Below, piece after piece: positions 11,078 through 17,692 of a DNA stretch of 64,000 nt. The DNA comes from Gemmatimonadota bacterium (GTDB lineage: Bacteria; Gemmatimonadota; Gemmatimonadetes; Gemmatimonadales; GWC2-71-9). Position numbers and translations under genes: made by a program. A model generated the notes under the pieces. The model saw only the letters and a program-made list of their open reading frames with translations, was not told the DNA's origin and searched no databases. Location of the stretch: the NCBI GenBank assembly GCA_003221035.1, contig QHUB01000009.1, forward strand, positions 1 through 64,000, in the 5' to 3' direction. How positions within the stretch are numbered: the first letter of the stretch is position 1; each line of letters begins with the position of its first letter.

Positions 11078-13627
11078 GTGGGTTTACGCGTCGTCCGAAT
11101 CGTGGGTCTTTTTGTCCTGGCAGCCGCGTTTCTCCCACATATCGCTTCCGCTCAAGATCAGCGCCATCCGCGTTGGGAAATCCCGGGTTTTGATTTCCGG
11201 CCGGACGGCGTGTGGCGCAAGAAGGGGCGTGAGGTCCGCGCCATGCGGGCACGTCTCCTCGCCACCCGCCGCTTCGCGGAGCTCGCGGCGCCCCTCATTG
11301 GTCCCGCTCCGTTACAGCTCACGCAAACCGGTGGGCCAAGCACCTCCACCACGGTGGTCTCCGGGGTGCTCACCGTGCCGGCCATCCTGTTCCGCTTTAA
11401 AGATTCGCCGACACCGGGATACTCCGCCGCCGACTACAACGCCGTCCTGTTTGCGACGACACCGCCCCCCGGCCGGCCATATACCTATCGGTCCTTTTAC
11501 AGAGAGATGTCGAACGGCTTCTTCGACATTCAGGGCGCCACGTACGGCTACGCCAATCTCGACAGCAACGAGGTCTATTACACGGGCGGCGTGAGCGCCA
11601 CCTGCGCGCAGGCGAATCCATTTGGCAACACGAGCAACTGCAACGGCTTGTTCAGCGGATTGGCGATCAGCCGGATGCAGGAGGCGTTGACGAAAGCGCT
11701 GCAGAAACTCGACGCGAGCATCGATTTCTCGCAGTATGCCGACGTGTCAACCGGCGTCGTGCCTCTCGTGCTGTTCCTGCACCAGGCAATCGGCGGAGAA
11801 TGCGGGCCGAGCTCCTCGCCGCAGAACCATCTCTGGGCGCACCGCTTTGCGCTCGCGACGCCGTACGCGACCCAGGACGACTGGCCCGGTCATGCGGGAC
11901 AGAAAGTCCAGATCAGCGACTATGTCCTGCAGCCCGCTGTCGGCGGCTCAGCCGCGTGCAACCCTTCCGAGATCATGCCGATCGGCACCGTCGCGCATGA
12001 GACGGGACACAGCTTCGGCCTGCCAGACCTGTACGACACCCAGGGTACGAGCGAGGGGGTTGGCCAGTGGAGCCTGATGGGCTCGGGAAATTTTACTTCG
12101 CCAAATAGTCCCGCGCGCATGGATGCGTGGTCGTTGAATCAGCTCGGCTGGATTACGCTGACGCCGCTGACGAGCAATGGCACGTACAGGTTTGATGCGG
12201 CGCCGTTGTCCGACACGGCGTATTACGTGAGTGTCCAGAATCCCAACACCAGAGGCGAGTACTTCCTGTTGGAGAACCGCCAGCGCCAGCAATCCGACAG
12301 CGCGATGATCCGGTACCACTGCCAGCGCTCCGGGAATCCGCCTTCGTGCGGCGGCGGACTCCTGATCTGGCACGTCGACGGTGCGAAGCTGGGGCAGGGT
12401 GGTAACGCGCTGAACTCGGGGGCGATTCATGCTCTCGAGCTGATGCAGGCCGACGGCTTCGGCAATCTCGATGCGAATTCGTCATCGGCCAATACGTGTT
12501 CCGGAGCGCCCGTCGACGGATGCTCGGATCGCGGCGACGCCGGCGATCCGTACCCCGGGGCGCACGGGAACACCGCGTTCATCTATCGGACCATTCCCGC
12601 GTCGCTCAAGAATCTCGACCAATCGTTTACCGGCGTCGCGATCGATTCCATCAGGCAAATCGTCACGGATGGGACGATGTCGTTCCGGTTGCGGTTCGGC
12701 ACCTTGACGGCTGCGAAGGGCAGTGACACGTCAGCGACGATTCAATTCGACGGATCGCCGTACAACGTCTTTCGCGATCTGCTCGACGAAGGATCGAGCC
12801 ATACGGTGGGATTCACCGACAACCAGCTCGCCGGAAATGCGCGGACGCGGTTCCACTTCGCGTCCTGGTCTGACGGAGGGGCGAAGGATCATACCGTCGT
12901 CGGCAGCCTCTCCGGCGGAACGCTGACGGCGACGCTCACGCGCGACTTCAAGTTGATTGCGACGTCGACCACGGGCGGACGGGTCACCGCGGACACAACG
13001 GTCAACCTGGCGGGCGACTTTATTCCCGAAAACCGGACCGTCACCCTGACTCCCATCGATACGAGTCTCGGGTTCTGCGGCTGGACCGGCGATTCCACGA
13101 CCACGGACTCGATCCTCGCGGTTGGCATGCAGCGGCCCTACACACTGGTCGCCAACTTCGGATCCGCGGCGACGATCACTTCCGCACCTGCGCGCCCGAA
13201 CGGCGTCATGGGCGCCGCCTACGCCGATACGTTGCGCATCTCCGGCGGAGGAGGCGTCATGACGTGGAGCGTGACGGCCGGTGGCTTACCCGCGGGCGTC
13301 ACCCTTTCATCCAACGGGAGGCTCTCGGGATACCCGCAGGAGACCGGCGCCTTCAATTTCACCGCCACCGTCGTCTCGTGCAGTACGGCGAGCAAGGCGT
13401 TCAGCCTCTCGGTCACGGCGCCGACACTCGCCACGGCTGACGTGGTGACACAATTACTGGGCCCTACCGCGCCACTCACGGCCGATCAGGTGCGCTATCT
13501 CGATTTCCTGGGGAATAACAACGGCGGCTTCGACGTCGGCGACTTTCTGGCGTGGGTCAAGGCGACCGGTGCGCCGTTGAGCCCTGCAATGCTACAAGCG
13601 GCTCAGCGGAAAGGAGGCCGGCGATGA
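11078..13627 (+). CDS. Secreted M6-family metalloprotease with Ig-like and dockerin-like C-terminal modules
   Basis: 849 residues. GTG 11078 is chosen because GGAGGTGA lies just before it and a signal peptide follows (LFVLAAAFLPHIASAQ). After a short pro-region, residues ~95-560 form an immune-inhibitor-A-like M6 protease with the zinc motif HETGHSFGLPD (307-317). A beta-rich region follows (~565-700, containing 'GFCGWTGDS' and 'YTLVANFGSAATI'), then a putative-Ig (He_PIG) domain 'GLPAGVTLSSNGRLSGYPQE' (~705-785). The last ~60 residues form a dockerin-like module with a degenerate EF loop N813-N-N-G-G-F-D-V-G-D822. The stop overlaps the start of a small lipoprotein (ATGA). Likely an extracellular protease held at the cell surface through the C-terminal module. 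Confidence 0.85.
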   Translation: MGLRVVRIVGLFVLAAAFLPHIASAQDQRHPRWEIPGFDFRPDGVWRKKGREVRAMRARLLATRRFAELAAPLIGPAPLQLTQTGGPSTSTTVVSGVLTVPAILFRFKDSPTPGYSAADYNAVLFATTPPPGRPYTYRSFYREMSNGFFDIQGATYGYANLDSNEVYYTGGVSATCAQANPFGNTSNCNGLFSGLAISRMQEALTKALQKLDASIDFSQYADVSTGVVPLVLFLHQAIGGECGPSSSPQNHLWAHRFALATPYATQDDWPGHAGQKVQISDYVLQPAVGGSAACNPSEIMPIGTVAHETGHSFGLPDLYDTQGTSEGVGQWSLMGSGNFTSPNSPARMDAWSLNQLGWITLTPLTSNGTYRFDAAPLSDTAYYVSVQNPNTRGEYFLLENRQRQQSDSAMIRYHCQRSGNPPSCGGGLLIWHVDGAKLGQGGNALNSGAIHALELMQADGFGNLDANSSSANTCSGAPVDGCSDRGDAGDPYPGAHGNTAFIYRTIPASLKNLDQSFTGVAIDSIRQIVTDGTMSFRLRFGTLTAAKGSDTSATIQFDGSPYNVFRDLLDEGSSHTVGFTDNQLAGNARTRFHFASWSDGGAKDHTVVGSLSGGTLTATLTRDFKLIATSTTGGRVTADTTVNLAGDFIPENRTVTLTPIDTSLGFCGWTGDSTTTDSILAVGMQRPYTLVANFGSAATITSAPARPNGVMGAAYADTLRISGGGGVMTWSVTAGGLPAGVTLSSNGRLSGYPQETGAFNFTATVVSCSTASKAFSLSVTAPTLATADVVTQLLGPTAPLTADQVRYLDFLGNNNGGFDVGDFLAWVKATGAPLSPAMLQAAQRKGGRR

Positions 13628-14034
13628 AACGGCTCCTTGGGCTGACGCTGCTGGTTGCGCTCATCGCGACCGGCATGAGTTGCGGCGACAACGGCTCACC
13701 AGGAGGACCATCCGGTCCCGGGGACCTCCAGGTCCGGCTGACTGCGCCGATCGGCGCGCTCGATTCCGCCATCGAATTCACAATTGCGGGACCGGCACCG
13801 CTGACCCGCGTCACCGCCGGAGCCGGCCTGCGACTCTTTCAGGAACCGTTGGGCGGCTCGTCGACCAATTTCGCCCTCATCGGGCCGCTCACCAACGGCG
13901 CGGTGATCCTGACCATCGGTGTGCAGGATCTTGCCGTGCTCAGCCAGTACCACGGCACCATCACGGGCGTCGCGATGCCGAACTACCAGCTGCGGACTTT
14001 GACGGGCGGATACGCGCTGGCGCTGACGCGCTAG
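13624..14034 (+). CDS. Small lipoprotein, cohesin-like fold suspected
   Basis: 136 residues; ATG 13624 overlaps the protease stop by four bases, so the two are translationally coupled. Signal MKRLLGLTLLVALIATGMSC gives acceptor Cys20, followed by a Gly/Pro linker (GDNGSPGGPSGPGD). The remaining ~100 residues are predicted beta strands ('LQVRLTAP', 'AIEFTIAGPAPLTRVTA', 'TNFALIGPLTNGAVILTIGV'). It is clearly related to the lipoprotein at 15540-15947, which is likewise coupled to a protein with the same dockerin-like C-terminus. The strand pattern resembles cohesin modules, but this is inference. It would face the surface or periplasm and could bind the preceding protease. Confidence 0.75.
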   Translation: MKRLLGLTLLVALIATGMSCGDNGSPGGPSGPGDLQVRLTAPIGALDSAIEFTIAGPAPLTRVTAGAGLRLFQEPLGGSSTNFALIGPLTNGAVILTIGVQDLAVLSQYHGTITGVAMPNYQLRTLTGGYALALTR

Positions 14035-14396
14035 TCGCCCGCCTCTGCAGCAGCCTCCGGGCTTTGTTGCCACACCTGCATCAGCGCCTCCTCGAGACGG
14101 CGCTTCAAGTCATGATACAGCGCGAGGAGACGCCGGCACTCGTCGGTGAGGGTCGTCGCACCTCCCCCCGGCCCACCGGCGCGGGACACGACGATCGGCC
14201 GGCCGAGGGCCTGCTCCATTTGCTGAATCGCGCTCCAAGCGGTCCGATAGCTGATGCCGGCCTCGGACGCCGCGTCCTTGATCGAGCGTACTCGCTCGAC
14301 GGCGTCGAGCAGACGGGCCTCGCGTTCACCGATCAGCGAGACGCCGCGCCGCGAGAGCGTGACGACCGCGTGAGGGACCAGTTCCGGAAACTGCAT
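14031..14396 (-). CDS. ModE N-terminal-domain transcriptional regulator (LysR-type HTH)
   Basis: 121 residues from ATG 14396 with an AGGAGGA ribosome site. It matches the winged-helix DNA-binding domain of ModE: 'RLLDAVERVRSIKDAASEAGISYRTAWSAIQQMEQALGRPIVVSRAGGPGGGATTLT' in outline (helix-turn-helix at about residues 40-60, Gly-rich wing at 72-79). The C-terminal molybdate-sensing (TOBE/Mop) domains of full ModE are missing, as in many short homologues. It follows the tungstate-binding protein by 8 bases and probably regulates that pair. It is convergent with the lipoprotein gene: stops overlap on CTAG. Confidence 0.8.
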   Translation of the reverse strand: MQFPELVPHAVVTLSRRGVSLIGEREARLLDAVERVRSIKDAASEAGISYRTAWSAIQQMEQALGRPIVVSRAGGPGGGATTLTDECRRLLALYHDLKRRLEEALMQVWQQSPEAAAEAGD

Positions 14397-14404
14397 AGCT
14401 CCTC

Positions 14405-15241
14405 CTACCGTTCAGCACGCGCGACCACGGATGGCACGACGCATCCACCGGGCGACGACTGAAATGCCGTCACGCCGCCAGGCAGGCGTTTGGCGAGCAG
14501 CCGCGCGCGCCACTCCTCGAGCGCCCACCGGCTGAATCGCGTCGCCTCCCTGCCGCTGTCCTCCGATGCCGAACGAATCACGTATAACGTATATGGGTTG
14601 CCGAGCGCACTGTCGGCAGTGAAGAGCACTTTCAAATCGACTCCTGCGAGTCGCGTAAAGGTCGGCAGGTCGGCCAGCGCATAGGCAGACCGCTCGTCGG
14701 CGATGCGGAGCGTGGCCGCCTGATCGCCTCCGGCCTCCACATACCAGTGATCCTGCGTTCCAGGCGTTCCGACGCCCGCCGCCTTCCACAGCGAGAGTTC
14801 CTTCAGGTGTGTGCCGGACGAATCGGCGCGCGAGATGAACAGCGCGCGTCGCGTGGCGATTCGGTGAAACGCATCGGCCGCCGACGTCGCCTGACGTACC
14901 TGCGCCGCATCAGCGGCTGGGCCGACGATCGCAAACGCGCTGGCGACGAACGGGCACCGCAACGCCGCATGGCCGGGATCGACCAGCAGACGCTGCTCGA
15001 GCGCCGGGGCGTGTGTAATGACGACGTCGAGATCTCCGGCTGCCGCCGAACGCAAAATGGCGCCCGACGACCCCACGACGACTCGCACAGCGACGGGAGA
15101 GTGCAGTGAGTCGAGTAGCGCGAGCGCGCCGGATTGATCGACCGTCGTCGTCGTGCCGAGGCGCAGCGGCTCTGCTTGCGTGCCGCGCGTACAGCAAGTT
15201 TGCGCGGCGCAAATGAAGGCCAAGACCAACGTAGGACGCAT
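14405..15241 (-). CDS. Tungstate/molybdate ABC transporter substrate-binding protein (TupA-like), orphan
   Basis: 278 residues from ATG 15241. Signal peptide MRPTLVLAFICAAQTCC with possible lipobox (Cys16 or Cys17). The mature start 'PLRLGTTTTVDQSGALALLDSL' is the oxyanion-binding signature of TupA/WtpA proteins; later motifs 'VVVGSSGAILRSAAAGDLDVVITHAP', 'FISRADSSGTHLKELSLWK' and 'NPYTLYVIRS' are also typical. No TupB permease or TupC ATPase gene is nearby, so it must work with components encoded elsewhere or act as a sensor or scavenger. It forms an operon with the ModE-type regulator; an inverted repeat overlaps its ribosome site. Confidence 0.85.
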   Translation of the reverse strand: MRPTLVLAFICAAQTCCTRGTQAEPLRLGTTTTVDQSGALALLDSLHSPVAVRVVVGSSGAILRSAAAGDLDVVITHAPALEQRLLVDPGHAALRCPFVASAFAIVGPAADAAQVRQATSAADAFHRIATRRALFISRADSSGTHLKELSLWKAAGVGTPGTQDHWYVEAGGDQAATLRIADERSAYALADLPTFTRLAGVDLKVLFTADSALGNPYTLYVIRSASEDSGREATRFSRWALEEWRARLLAKRLPGGVTAFQSSPGGCVVPSVVARAER

Positions 15242-15242
15242 G

Positions 15243-15265
15243 ATCGCTATTCTCCCCCTAGCGGT
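15243..15265 (-). promoter_or_regulatory. Candidate ModE-type operator over the tupA-like ribosome site
   Basis: ATCGCTA (15243-15249), 9 bases, TAGCGGT (15259-15265): an inverted repeat with half-sites like the ModE box (ATCGCTAT...). It covers the GGGGGAG ribosome site and ends one base before the ATG of the tungstate-binding gene, whose partner gene encodes a ModE-type protein. Binding there would repress the operon. Confidence 0.5.
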
Positions 15266-15428
15266 ATACCCGAAAAGCGAATTCGTTCCAATCGTTCTTC
15301 GGGGCGTGTTGCAGCGCGGCAACAGGAGTGTTACTACCACACAGTCGAATTGATGACCCACGCGATATGAGCGCCAATACCATTCCCTAACATCCGTCGT
15401 GTCTCTATTTTCGTGGCGGGTCTCGCCG

Positions 15429-15501
15429 GGGGCGGTAGCTCAGTTGGGAGAGCACCTGGTTTGCAACCAGGGGGTCGTGGGTTCGAATCCCATCCGCTCC
15501 A
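15429..15501 (+). tRNA. tRNA-Ala (anticodon UGC)
   Basis: 73 bases folding into a standard cloverleaf: acceptor GGGGCGG/CCGCTCC including the G3-U70 pair that marks alanine tRNAs, D stem GCTC/GAGC, anticodon stem CCTGG/CCAGG with loop TTTGCAA, T arm with GGTTCGAAT-type loop, discriminator A. CCA is not encoded in full. Confidence 0.97.
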
Positions 15502-15539
15502 TGTAACCGCTGGTGCAAGTGTTGCGGTGCTATAGCACC

Positions 15540-15947
15540 GTGAAGCCTCTCGCAAAGCTCTGCCTGCCACTCGCCGCCATGGCCAGTCTCGCCGGCTGCG
15601 GCGAGCCTCCACCGAGCGCGACCCAGTCGGCCACGATCACGCTCGTGGTTTCTCTCGTTACGCCTCACGCCGATGACGGCGCGCTGATTCTCACGATCAC
15701 GGGACCCGACCTCGAGTCGGTCGTGACCACCCCGTATGTGGCGTATGCGCGCGCGACGGGGTCAGGCACATTGCGTATCACCGTCGTGGGCGATCTGGTC
15801 GCCGGTCCGGTCGTGACGCTGCGGCTCAGCGTGCCCCATGACGCGGCGGCCTACGCCGGAACCGTGGAGCAAGTCGCGCAACGGACGGACACGCTCCGCG
15901 ACGCGCTCACGGGTTATGGTCTGACCATCGCACCGGCAGCGCCGTGA
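15540..15947 (+). CDS. Small lipoprotein, paralogue of the 13624 gene (cohesin-like fold suspected)
   Basis: 135 residues. Start taken at GTG 15540, which gives a good lipoprotein signal (VKPLAKLCLPLAAMASLAGC, acceptor Cys20); a GTG at 15513 would lengthen it without benefit. A perfect hairpin GGTGC-TATA-GCACC ends at the start codon and could affect translation. The mature part ('TITLVVSLVTPHADDGALILTITGPDLESVVTT', 'GTLRITVVGDLVAGPVVTLRLSVP' in outline) aligns with the lipoprotein at 13624-14034, including spacing and C-terminal 'LRDALTGYGLTI' versus 'LRTLTGGYALAL'. Its stop overlaps the GTG of the next gene, which again carries a dockerin-like tail. Likely a surface receptor or anchor for that protein. 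Confidence 0.75.
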   Translation: MKPLAKLCLPLAAMASLAGCGEPPPSATQSATITLVVSLVTPHADDGALILTITGPDLESVVTTPYVAYARATGSGTLRITVVGDLVAGPVVTLRLSVPHDAAAYAGTVEQVAQRTDTLRDALTGYGLTIAPAAP

Positions 15948-17692
15948 GGTTCCCTTCGGCCGCGCTGCTCTCGTTGCTCTGCGGGGCGGCGCTTCCCGTC
16001 CCGGGCTGGTCGCAGCACGTGAACGAGCGCGAGCCCAACGATTCGTTCGCCACCGCGACGCCGACGGCGGCGGCCGATACGCTGGTCGGCGTCATCGGTC
16101 ACCTGTACGACCGCGATCTGTTCGCGATCAATCTTCCGGGCGCGATCCGGCTGACTGTGGATCGCAGCGCCGCCAACTGGCGCGTGGAAGTCGTCGTATT
16201 CGACAGCGGCGGTGCCGAGCTCAGTCAGCTGCTGGATATCGAAGGAACGACGGTCGATCTGCCCGTGCTGCGTGCGGGGCGCTACTACATCCAGCTGAGC
16301 GTGTTCGATCAGGACGATCCCAGCGCCACCGATGGTGCAACCGACTTCGCGTACCGCATCGGTCTCTCGACCCAGCCGGAACCCGTCGGCCCCGGCGATC
16401 CCACGACGCCGGTGTTTCGGAATTCCGCCGCGGGACTCGCTCGGCCCGGGGCCGGCGACGCCAATGACCTGTGGGGATACAGCGCGCAAGGCGCGGTCAC
16501 GCGCCTCTCGCCCGACGGGTCGGTCACCGTCCTGGCGCAGCAGCTCGCGCCCTCGGAGTACGACGGGCCCTATGGCGCGCCGTATACCCTGGACCGATCG
16601 GCCCACGTGCTCGTGCCCGGCGGCCTGCGCGTCGATGATCAGATCCGCTCGTTTATCTGGCGCATCGCGATCGACAGTGGCGCGAGCACCGTCTTCACGA
16701 GCGGGGACTTCTATCCCTCGCGGCTGAACGTCGCCGTCGGACGGGACGGTGACGTGTGGATCGGGCCTGCGGCCAGAGTCGCGAATCGGATCACCACCGA
16801 CTCCATGTACGTGTGGCGGCTGAGTCCGCTCGGCGATCCGCTCGATTCGGTGAACGTCTCGGGACTCTACCTGGAAGCGATCGCGCTCTCGCCTGCCGGC
16901 GACCTGTATGCCAGCGGGGCCAGCGGCGTGTTCCGGCTCGTGGATCACACCGTGCGACGCGTGATCGCGCCGGTGCGCGAAGAGCTCCATCAGATTCTGT
17001 TCGACCGCGACGGGTATGTCTACGTGGTCAAAGGCAGCGGGTGGAATCGCCGGCTGTCGCTGTATGATCCCGGGATGGCGCTCGTCGCGGATACCTTCGC
17101 GCATCTTCCCCTCGCGTGGTCCGGCGACGGCGAGGGCCAGGTCTTGTTCGCGTTCGACCGTGCGGGGAATCCCAATGGCCGGCTGCTGGCTCAGGATGCG
17201 AGTCTCGGATTTGTCGAGTTGAACCCGAGCGGCGTGCGCGCTCCGGGCGTCCGCTTACCCGATCTGCTCCGCGTCTCGTTTGCGGGCAACGATTCGGCGG
17301 AAGTCGGGGAACCGTACTCCGCGCAGCTCCAGCTGGAAGCTGCCCCTGCCGCAACGCAATGGAGTGTCGTGAGCGGGGCGCTGCCGCCCGGCGTCGTCCT
17401 GGGCGAAGCCACCGGGGCGCTTGCGGGATCGCCCCGCGTGGCCGGGTGGTACACGGTTGGGGTGCGGGCACACAGCGGCGCGCGATACGGATTTGCCCGC
17501 GTCACCATGGTCGTGGCGCCGGGGAGCGTCAGCGTGGAGGATGCCCAGAATGCGCTCCTGGGCGGGCCCGCGCTCTCGCCGCAGAACGCGCAATTGCTCG
17601 ATCAGATCGGCAATCGGAACGGGCGGTTCGATGTGGGCGATCTCCGCGCCTATCTGCGCCTGCTGGGGCGGCTGGCAGCATCGCGAAACTGA
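15944..17692 (+). CDS. Secreted protein: PPC domain, beta-propeller-like region, Ig-like and dockerin-like tail
   Basis: 582 residues; GTG 15944 overlaps the lipoprotein stop (GTGA). Signal peptide MRFPSAALLSLLCGAALPVPGWSQ. Residues ~27-145 resemble a bacterial pre-peptidase C-terminal (PPC) domain: 'NEREPNDSFATATP', 'IGHLYDRDLFAINL', 'AGRYYIQLSVFD'. Residues ~150-430 hold repeated strands ('LSPDGSVTVLAQ', 'VGRDGDVWIG', 'LSPAGDLYASG', 'FDRDGYVYVV') that suggest a beta-propeller. Then an Ig-like segment with 'GALPPGVVLGEATGALAGSP' and a C-terminal dockerin-like module whose loop is N557-R-N-G-R-F-D-V-G-D566. The last two modules match those of the M6 protease. Probably surface-attached; binding or enzymatic role unknown. 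Confidence 0.75.
   Translation: MRFPSAALLSLLCGAALPVPGWSQHVNEREPNDSFATATPTAAADTLVGVIGHLYDRDLFAINLPGAIRLTVDRSAANWRVEVVVFDSGGAELSQLLDIEGTTVDLPVLRAGRYYIQLSVFDQDDPSATDGATDFAYRIGLSTQPEPVGPGDPTTPVFRNSAAGLARPGAGDANDLWGYSAQGAVTRLSPDGSVTVLAQQLAPSEYDGPYGAPYTLDRSAHVLVPGGLRVDDQIRSFIWRIAIDSGASTVFTSGDFYPSRLNVAVGRDGDVWIGPAARVANRITTDSMYVWRLSPLGDPLDSVNVSGLYLEAIALSPAGDLYASGASGVFRLVDHTVRRVIAPVREELHQILFDRDGYVYVVKGSGWNRRLSLYDPGMALVADTFAHLPLAWSGDGEGQVLFAFDRAGNPNGRLLAQDASLGFVELNPSGVRAPGVRLPDLLRVSFAGNDSAEVGEPYSAQLQLEAAPAATQWSVVSGALPPGVVLGEATGALAGSPRVAGWYTVGVRAHSGARYGFARVTMVVAPGSVSVEDAQNALLGGPALSPQNAQLLDQIGNRNGRFDVGDLRAYLRLLGRLAASRN

Follow-up and report, generated by a model that had tools for sequence, protein, structure and literature searches.

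A C-terminal tail and an adjoining cohesin-like lipoprotein as a likely docking pair of secreted proteins in Gemmatimonadota

Two loci in the window, by which we mean the whole 64,000-nucleotide stretch of Gemmatimonadota DNA that was analysed, each encode a secreted protein with a short C-terminal tail and, overlapping it, a small lipoprotein. The reading we consider likely is that each tail docks on a single membrane lipoprotein, its operon-coupled partner, by which the secreted protein is tethered, with the binding, the tethering, the membrane and the calcium all being inferred. In the mechanism proposed here, the first part would be a tail of about 55 residues at the C-terminus of a Sec-exported protein, with a single EF/F-hand-like loop framed by three or four helices, and the second a lipoprotein whose N-terminal lipid-modified Cys would sit in a membrane and whose body would be a minimal cohesin-like beta-sandwich. 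Both partners would be exported, the cohesin-like body would catch its own tail, and the cargo would be kept at the membrane and not lost. Tethering is inferred as the natural consequence of binding. Translational coupling would deliver both partners in step, as a rule with one anchor per cargo.

The features of both loci are listed in Table 1. The first cargo was recognised as an M6 protease by NCBIfam (M6 domain, E=4.6e-41) and Pfam (Peptidase_M6, E=2.2e-20), with its He_PIG Ig-like domain at residues 702-780; in the second cargo the He_PIG domain spans residues 449-523 and no protease domain was recognised in the domain search. The C-termini of the two proteins, consisting of the Ig-like domain and the tail of about 55 residues, are homologous (BLASTP E=5e-13; LDFLGNNNGGFDVGD in the M6 protease and LDQIGNRNGRFDVGD in cargo 2), as are lipoproteins A and B (30% identity, E=2e-5), each of which has a signal peptide and a lipobox Cys (MSC in A, AGC in B). 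At both junctions stop and start codons overlap by four bases, namely ATGA at 13624-13627 (protease stop, lipoprotein A start) and GTGA at 15944-15947 (lipoprotein B stop, cargo 2 start), and the gene order is mirrored, the protease preceding lipoprotein A and lipoprotein B preceding cargo 2. Because two minus-strand genes and a tRNA-Ala gene lie in between, we regard the loci as two separate pairs and not as a single operon. By eye, the minus-strand genes (14031-15361) were assigned to a ModE-like HTH protein and a TupA-like substrate-binding protein, and the tRNA gene is a plus-strand tRNA-Ala(TGC) at 15429-15501. A third homologue of the lipoproteins lies at the end of another contig of this genome, so that any partner would be out of view beyond it; all three lipoproteins of this genome carry a signal peptide with a lipobox Cys. 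A preliminary description, made from the sequence alone, had claimed the shared C-terminal module, the homologous lipoproteins, the gene overlaps, their positions and the mirrored order, all of which held. It had also assigned a PPC domain to the second protein; Pfam found no PPC match in this copy at E<=1, the domain being present in 8 of 69 related tail proteins.

Table 1. Positions of the secreted proteins, docking tails and lipoproteins in the window.
Feature	Positions	Strand	Remarks
M6-family metalloprotease, secreted (cargo 1)	11078-13627	+	InlB-repeat-like and He_PIG Ig-like domains, putative docking tail
Putative docking tail of the M6 protease	13430-13594	+	helix ADVVTQLLG, helix, 14-residue loop D-x-x-G-N-x-N-G-x-F-D-x-G-D, helix FLAWV; L824 at covarying position
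Lipoprotein A, cognate to the M6 protease	13624-14034	+	lipobox Cys20, predicted cohesin-like domain; Tyr121 at covarying position
Lipoprotein B, cognate to cargo 2	15540-15947	+	lipobox Cys20, predicted 8-strand cohesin-like domain; sequence used for AlphaFold2 model
PPC-like/propeller-like protein, secreted (cargo 2)	15944-17692	+	He_PIG Ig-like domain, putative docking tail
Putative docking tail of cargo 2	17528-17686	+	R568 at covarying position

A profile was built for each family and then searched in genomes. Among 121 relatives, the lipoprotein was present in 65 genomes and the tail in 64, both being found in 61; the four genomes with a lipoprotein only had weak or contig-edge matches, and in the three with a tail only a divergent lipoprotein of the family adjoined the tail on closer inspection. 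Every one of the 85 lipoprotein loci in these relatives that had intact flanks and a clear match was accompanied by a tail on the same strand, at two loci on an S8-like protease about 10 kb away. In a wider Gemmatimonadota set, 152 of 156 tails had a family lipoprotein nearby on the same strand, 133 as two-gene pairs and 19 in one open frame with the lipoprotein domain. For a random pair of genes present in 1-5 copies in about 3.5 Mb, we estimate the chance of such closeness at roughly <=1%. The observation made in the window is real and far from chance. The four unpaired tails comprise L200, whose lipoprotein frame is broken, L275, which lies at a contig end, L154, whose lipoprotein has diverged strongly, and L146, the one genuine exception. 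Since a divergent lipoprotein adjoins the tails of L150-L155, the possibility of orphan tails was largely dismissed, with L146 remaining. This locus (L146:826-5862) encodes a BNR-propeller-like protein and is the only clear tail without a lipoprotein in the roughly 2 kb before the contig end. At another locus (L054:2694-7795), two tail proteins flank a single lipoprotein, which was counted for both; one anchor may serve two cargoes here. The tail was found in 153 of 346 sampled genomes of the phylum Gemmatimonadota. A GTDB-wide scan, which used an alignment of 7 tails and a narrow pattern, yielded 27 confirmed loci, all from Gemmatimonadota or from MAGs listed beside them, with titles including 'Bacterium HR33', 'Candidatus Kutchimonas' and 'Longimicrobiales' (one each).

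The coupling seen in the window is also widely kept. An exact 4-base stop/start overlap was present in 114 of the 133 two-gene pairs, in which the partner genes were never in the same frame; by a separate count, the tail gene came first in 114 and the lipoprotein gene in 19. Distance matrices of tails and lipoproteins were correlated with r=0.61 for cognate pairs and with 0.41 (sd 0.04) when partners were swapped inside multi-copy genomes, and none of 2000 such swaps reached the correlation of the real pairs. This co-divergence shows that the two are inherited as a unit, but contact is not proven by it alone. In L186, L194, L198, L203, L206, L208 and L266-L272, a single open frame covers both the tail and the cohesin-like domain, with an Arg-rich region, a hydrophobic segment and a WSC-type lipobox in between. 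A lipobox-like segment inside an open frame is topologically odd and counts against the anchoring model; an internal start within the fused frames is possible, and the insertion or processing of such proteins is unexplained. Two of the fused frames, L198:3386-4387 and L268:2165-3022, are only 334 and 286 residues long, with little beyond the leader, the tail and the cohesin-like domain and no large cargo domain. L207:3116-4195 is a reverse fusion, in which a cohesin-like lipoprotein is followed by the tail in the same frame, and in L205, L277 and L278 extra Ig-like sequence between lipobox and cohesin-like domain lengthens the anchor.

Evidence for contact was drawn from a model of a natural fusion and from covariation. 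AlphaFold2 was run on the fusion L208:3965-4690 with an alignment of 15 fusions, 60 single tails and 75 single lipoproteins. Tail and lipoprotein domain were both predicted with pLDDT >90, the disordered linker of some 70 residues (about residues 68-138) with pLDDT near 50, and the pTM was 0.73. Given 103 and 66 confident residues out of 242, a pTM of about 0.47 is expected if the relative position of the two domains is unknown and of about 0.68 with a 2 A error; the value obtained exceeds that expected without docking, which implies that the model places the tail confidently against the cohesin-like domain. The docking is thus a prediction, inferred from pTM without PAE or coordinates and with the interface unnamed, and it concerns a natural fusion and not the window's own pairs; it is also possible that AlphaFold2 learned cohesin-dockerin docking from the PDB. 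Among 4998 column pairs, the strongest inter-protein covariation was 0.305 (null maximum 0.18), linking the second tail residue after the invariant GD (Leu824 in the M6 protease, Arg568 in cargo 2) to the lipoprotein column of Tyr121 in lipoprotein A. The lipoprotein had Tyr or Phe in 84 of 94 pairs with a hydrophobic tail residue and in 1 of 44 pairs with Arg, Lys or Gln in the tail. On a tree built without the covarying columns, a lipoprotein change coincided with 3 of 5 tail changes (0.18 expected, P=0.0003); the signal rests on a small number of transitions. The window's two pairs differ at the covarying position, from which we infer that they would not cross-bind. Although there are no binding data, the predicted docking, the fusions and the covariation together support physical binding well by inference. 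Alternatively, tail and lipoprotein might make no contact at all, being merely co-transcribed and co-inherited, with the tail serving as a calcium-stabilised end domain. Pairing and co-divergence could in principle arise from linkage alone; however, the predicted docking in the fusion, the fused frames, the persistence of pairing in both gene orders and the finding that one particular pair of residues covaries more than the tree accounts for all speak against this explanation, which we hold to be very unlikely.

With respect to the docking reading, the nature of the lipoprotein body was inferred from structure prediction. The AlphaFold2 model of the lipoprotein B domain (pLDDT 92, pTM 0.82) has eight strands, of which strands 6 and 7 are separated by a short helix, a helix position also described for type II cohesins (PMC5141474). 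In Foldseek, the leading PDB matches were the cohesin modules 2o4e, 2jh2, 2w1n and 2vo8 (probability 0.99-1.00, E only 0.008-0.2), the best superposition being with 2jh2_A (TM 0.69 over the query, rmsd 3.1); for an independent AlphaFold2 model of another member, inside a fusion, the first match was 2xdh, a non-cellulosomal cohesin of Archaeoglobus. Since the E-values are modest, we take this as similarity of fold and not as proof of descent. The Pfam Cohesin family (PF00963) had no match in this genome and was not among the first 25 of the 31 families matched by 77 lipoproteins, and an hhalign comparison of the lipoprotein family with three CipA cohesins was not significant (Prob 0.6). Searches of Pfam, NCBIfam and PDB sequences with both the tail and the lipoprotein profile gave no credible relative, and both families are unnamed in Pfam and NCBIfam. 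Whether the lipoprotein is a member of the cohesins is unresolved, as the predicted fold agrees and the sequence does not. The preliminary description had suggested cohesin-like strands, which cannot be read from sequence alone but with which the structure prediction agrees. It had proposed pairing across genomes as a check and had held that it would be refuted by a fold other than a cohesin-type jelly roll, by the lack of a predicted interface or by the absence of pairing in other genomes. None of these was found: the best structural matches are cohesins, the pTM of the natural-fusion model implies docking and pairing is near-universal. Its interpretation is supported overall, with binding, calcium and the outer membrane remaining inferred.

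As for the location of the anchor, a simple rule detected a signal peptide with a lipobox Cys in 126 of the 133 two-gene pairs; the residue after the Cys is mostly Gly or Ser, and Asp in 22 of the 126. In E. coli, Gly or Ser after the Cys sends lipoproteins to the outer membrane and Asp to the inner membrane. By analogy, this rule, which is untested in Gemmatimonadota, points to the outer membrane for the Gly/Ser lipoproteins and to the inner membrane for the 22 with Asp, which weigh against the anchoring model. The genome further encodes homologues of SprA (contig C34:18293-22210, 501.7 bits) and PorV (contig C24:4329-5222, 121.6 bits), both over the cut-off, so that a type IX-like export route is possible, although a 2016 survey recorded no complete type IX system outside Bacteroidetes (PMC4793230). 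NCBIfam sorting-signal models, including the type IX C-terminal domain, did not match the tails. These data bear on a second alternative, in which the lipoprotein acts as a chaperone, pilotin or export receptor at the membrane, binding the tail only during folding or envelope passage and then releasing the cargo. Such a protein would predict the same pairing, coupling and covariation, and the SprA and PorV homologues in the genome make it possible that cargo is exported across the outer membrane by way of C-terminal signals. However, the best structural matches are cohesins, which are static docking modules, a general export receptor would serve many cargoes whereas a cargo of this system normally comes with a lipoprotein of its own, and no known lipoprotein chaperone family was matched in family searches of the lipoproteins. 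We consider this alternative unlikely.

The partner in the preferred docking reading, the tail, was modelled in the fusion with four helices (2-8, 14-22, 29-38 and 47-59) and a single loop before the last helix. Over 156 tails the loop consensus is D-x-x-G-N-x-[ND]-G-x-[YF]-[DN]-x-G-D, with alignment columns N40 and D51 invariant (100%), D36 at 99% and G39 and G50 at 98%. When the last D is numbered as EF position 12, an F-hand is matched at positions 3, 5, 6, 8, 9 and 12 but not at position 1, which lacks an acidic residue; a nearly invariant Asp is found two residues before it. The loop has five conserved side chains, acidic or amide, that would suit calcium, so that calcium binding is a possibility that is only inferred. 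Dockerins carry a duplicated F-hand pair (PMC4728124, PMC5141474), whereas the alignment of 156 tails has one loop per tail. None of 79 tails matched the Pfam dockerin family (PF00404) at E<=1, one tail weakly matched NCBIfam dockerin_GC (E 0.13), and hhalign of the tail profile with type I dockerin aligned the loop alone and was not significant (Prob 1.3). With a single loop and no sequence match, the tail does not qualify as a dockerin, and the label 'dockerin-like' given to it earlier should be read as likeness only.

Like the cohesin-dockerin pairs of cellulosomes (types I, II and III), the system described here combines a helical, EF/F-hand-like C-terminal module on secreted proteins with a predicted beta-sandwich receptor, and it likely works in the same way, although this rests on model predictions and no homology to either family was detected by sequence. 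It differs in that the receptor model has 8 strands in about 105 residues, compared with 9 strands in about 140 residues for cellulosomal cohesins, and in that there is one cohesin-like domain per lipoprotein, no scaffoldin was seen and the genes are coupled one to one. Both domains, cohesin and dockerin, also occur in bacteria and archaea that are not regarded as cellulose degraders (PMC9012536), and the closest folds in Foldseek are non-cellulosomal cohesins, from glycosidases of Clostridium perfringens (2jh2, 2o4e, 2vo8, 2w1n) and from Archaeoglobus fulgidus (2xdh). In contrast to these, the cohesin-like domain here forms a lipoprotein of its own, and the tail lacks the two F-hands of a dockerin. 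The C-terminal sorting or anchoring signals of Gram-negative bacteria (type IX CTD, PEP-CTERM, GlyGly-CTERM) likewise are short modules common to unrelated secreted proteins, but here the partner is encoded beside nearly every cargo and is a lipoprotein without a recognised enzyme domain. No description of this tail-lipoprotein system was found in the literature searched. A bolder reading is that of a phylum-wide anchoring system of Gemmatimonadota, possibly independent of cellulosomal cohesin-dockerin, with single-loop tails, dedicated coupled minimal cohesin-like lipoproteins, a readable specificity pair and perhaps a role as the surface-retention step of type IX-like (SprA/PorV) export; we put this forward tentatively, being inclined to doubt it more than to accept it. 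The tethering reading offers a likely function for two protein families without a name in Pfam or NCBIfam. If true, it would account for the retention of proteases and propeller proteins at the cell in a phylum that is widespread and poorly understood, and it would extend clip-type anchoring past cellulosomes to a very compact version, with about 55 residues in the tail and about 105 in the cohesin-like domain. The natural variety of the pairs and the candidate specificity position make them a possible source of orthogonal protein clips.

M6 proteases made up the largest share of the cargoes, with 52 of 69 in one set and 16 of 53 in a second, and other tails were found on S8-like proteases, sortilin/BNR propellers, PPC, LRR and Calx-beta proteins. 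The presence of the tail on such diverse cargoes marks it as a module moving between proteins and not part of a protease. The frequency of M6 proteases is a point in favour of a third alternative, according to which the lipoprotein serves the neighbouring protease as its own inhibitor or as an immunity-like partner, silencing it in the envelope; operons of proteases and their inhibitors exist. However, many partners are not proteases (propellers, PPC, LRR, Calx-beta and BNR proteins), and the common element is the tail and not a catalytic domain, with cargo 2 of the window being an example without a recognised protease domain. The protease-inhibitor reading was rejected because so many cargoes are not proteases, and we regard it as very unlikely. 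The cargo of the preferred docking pair is not cellulolytic. Among the S8-like cargoes are two large proteases (L148 and L149, frames of 2021 and 1587 residues) that carry the tail and are encoded several kb downstream of the lipoprotein, not adjacent to it.
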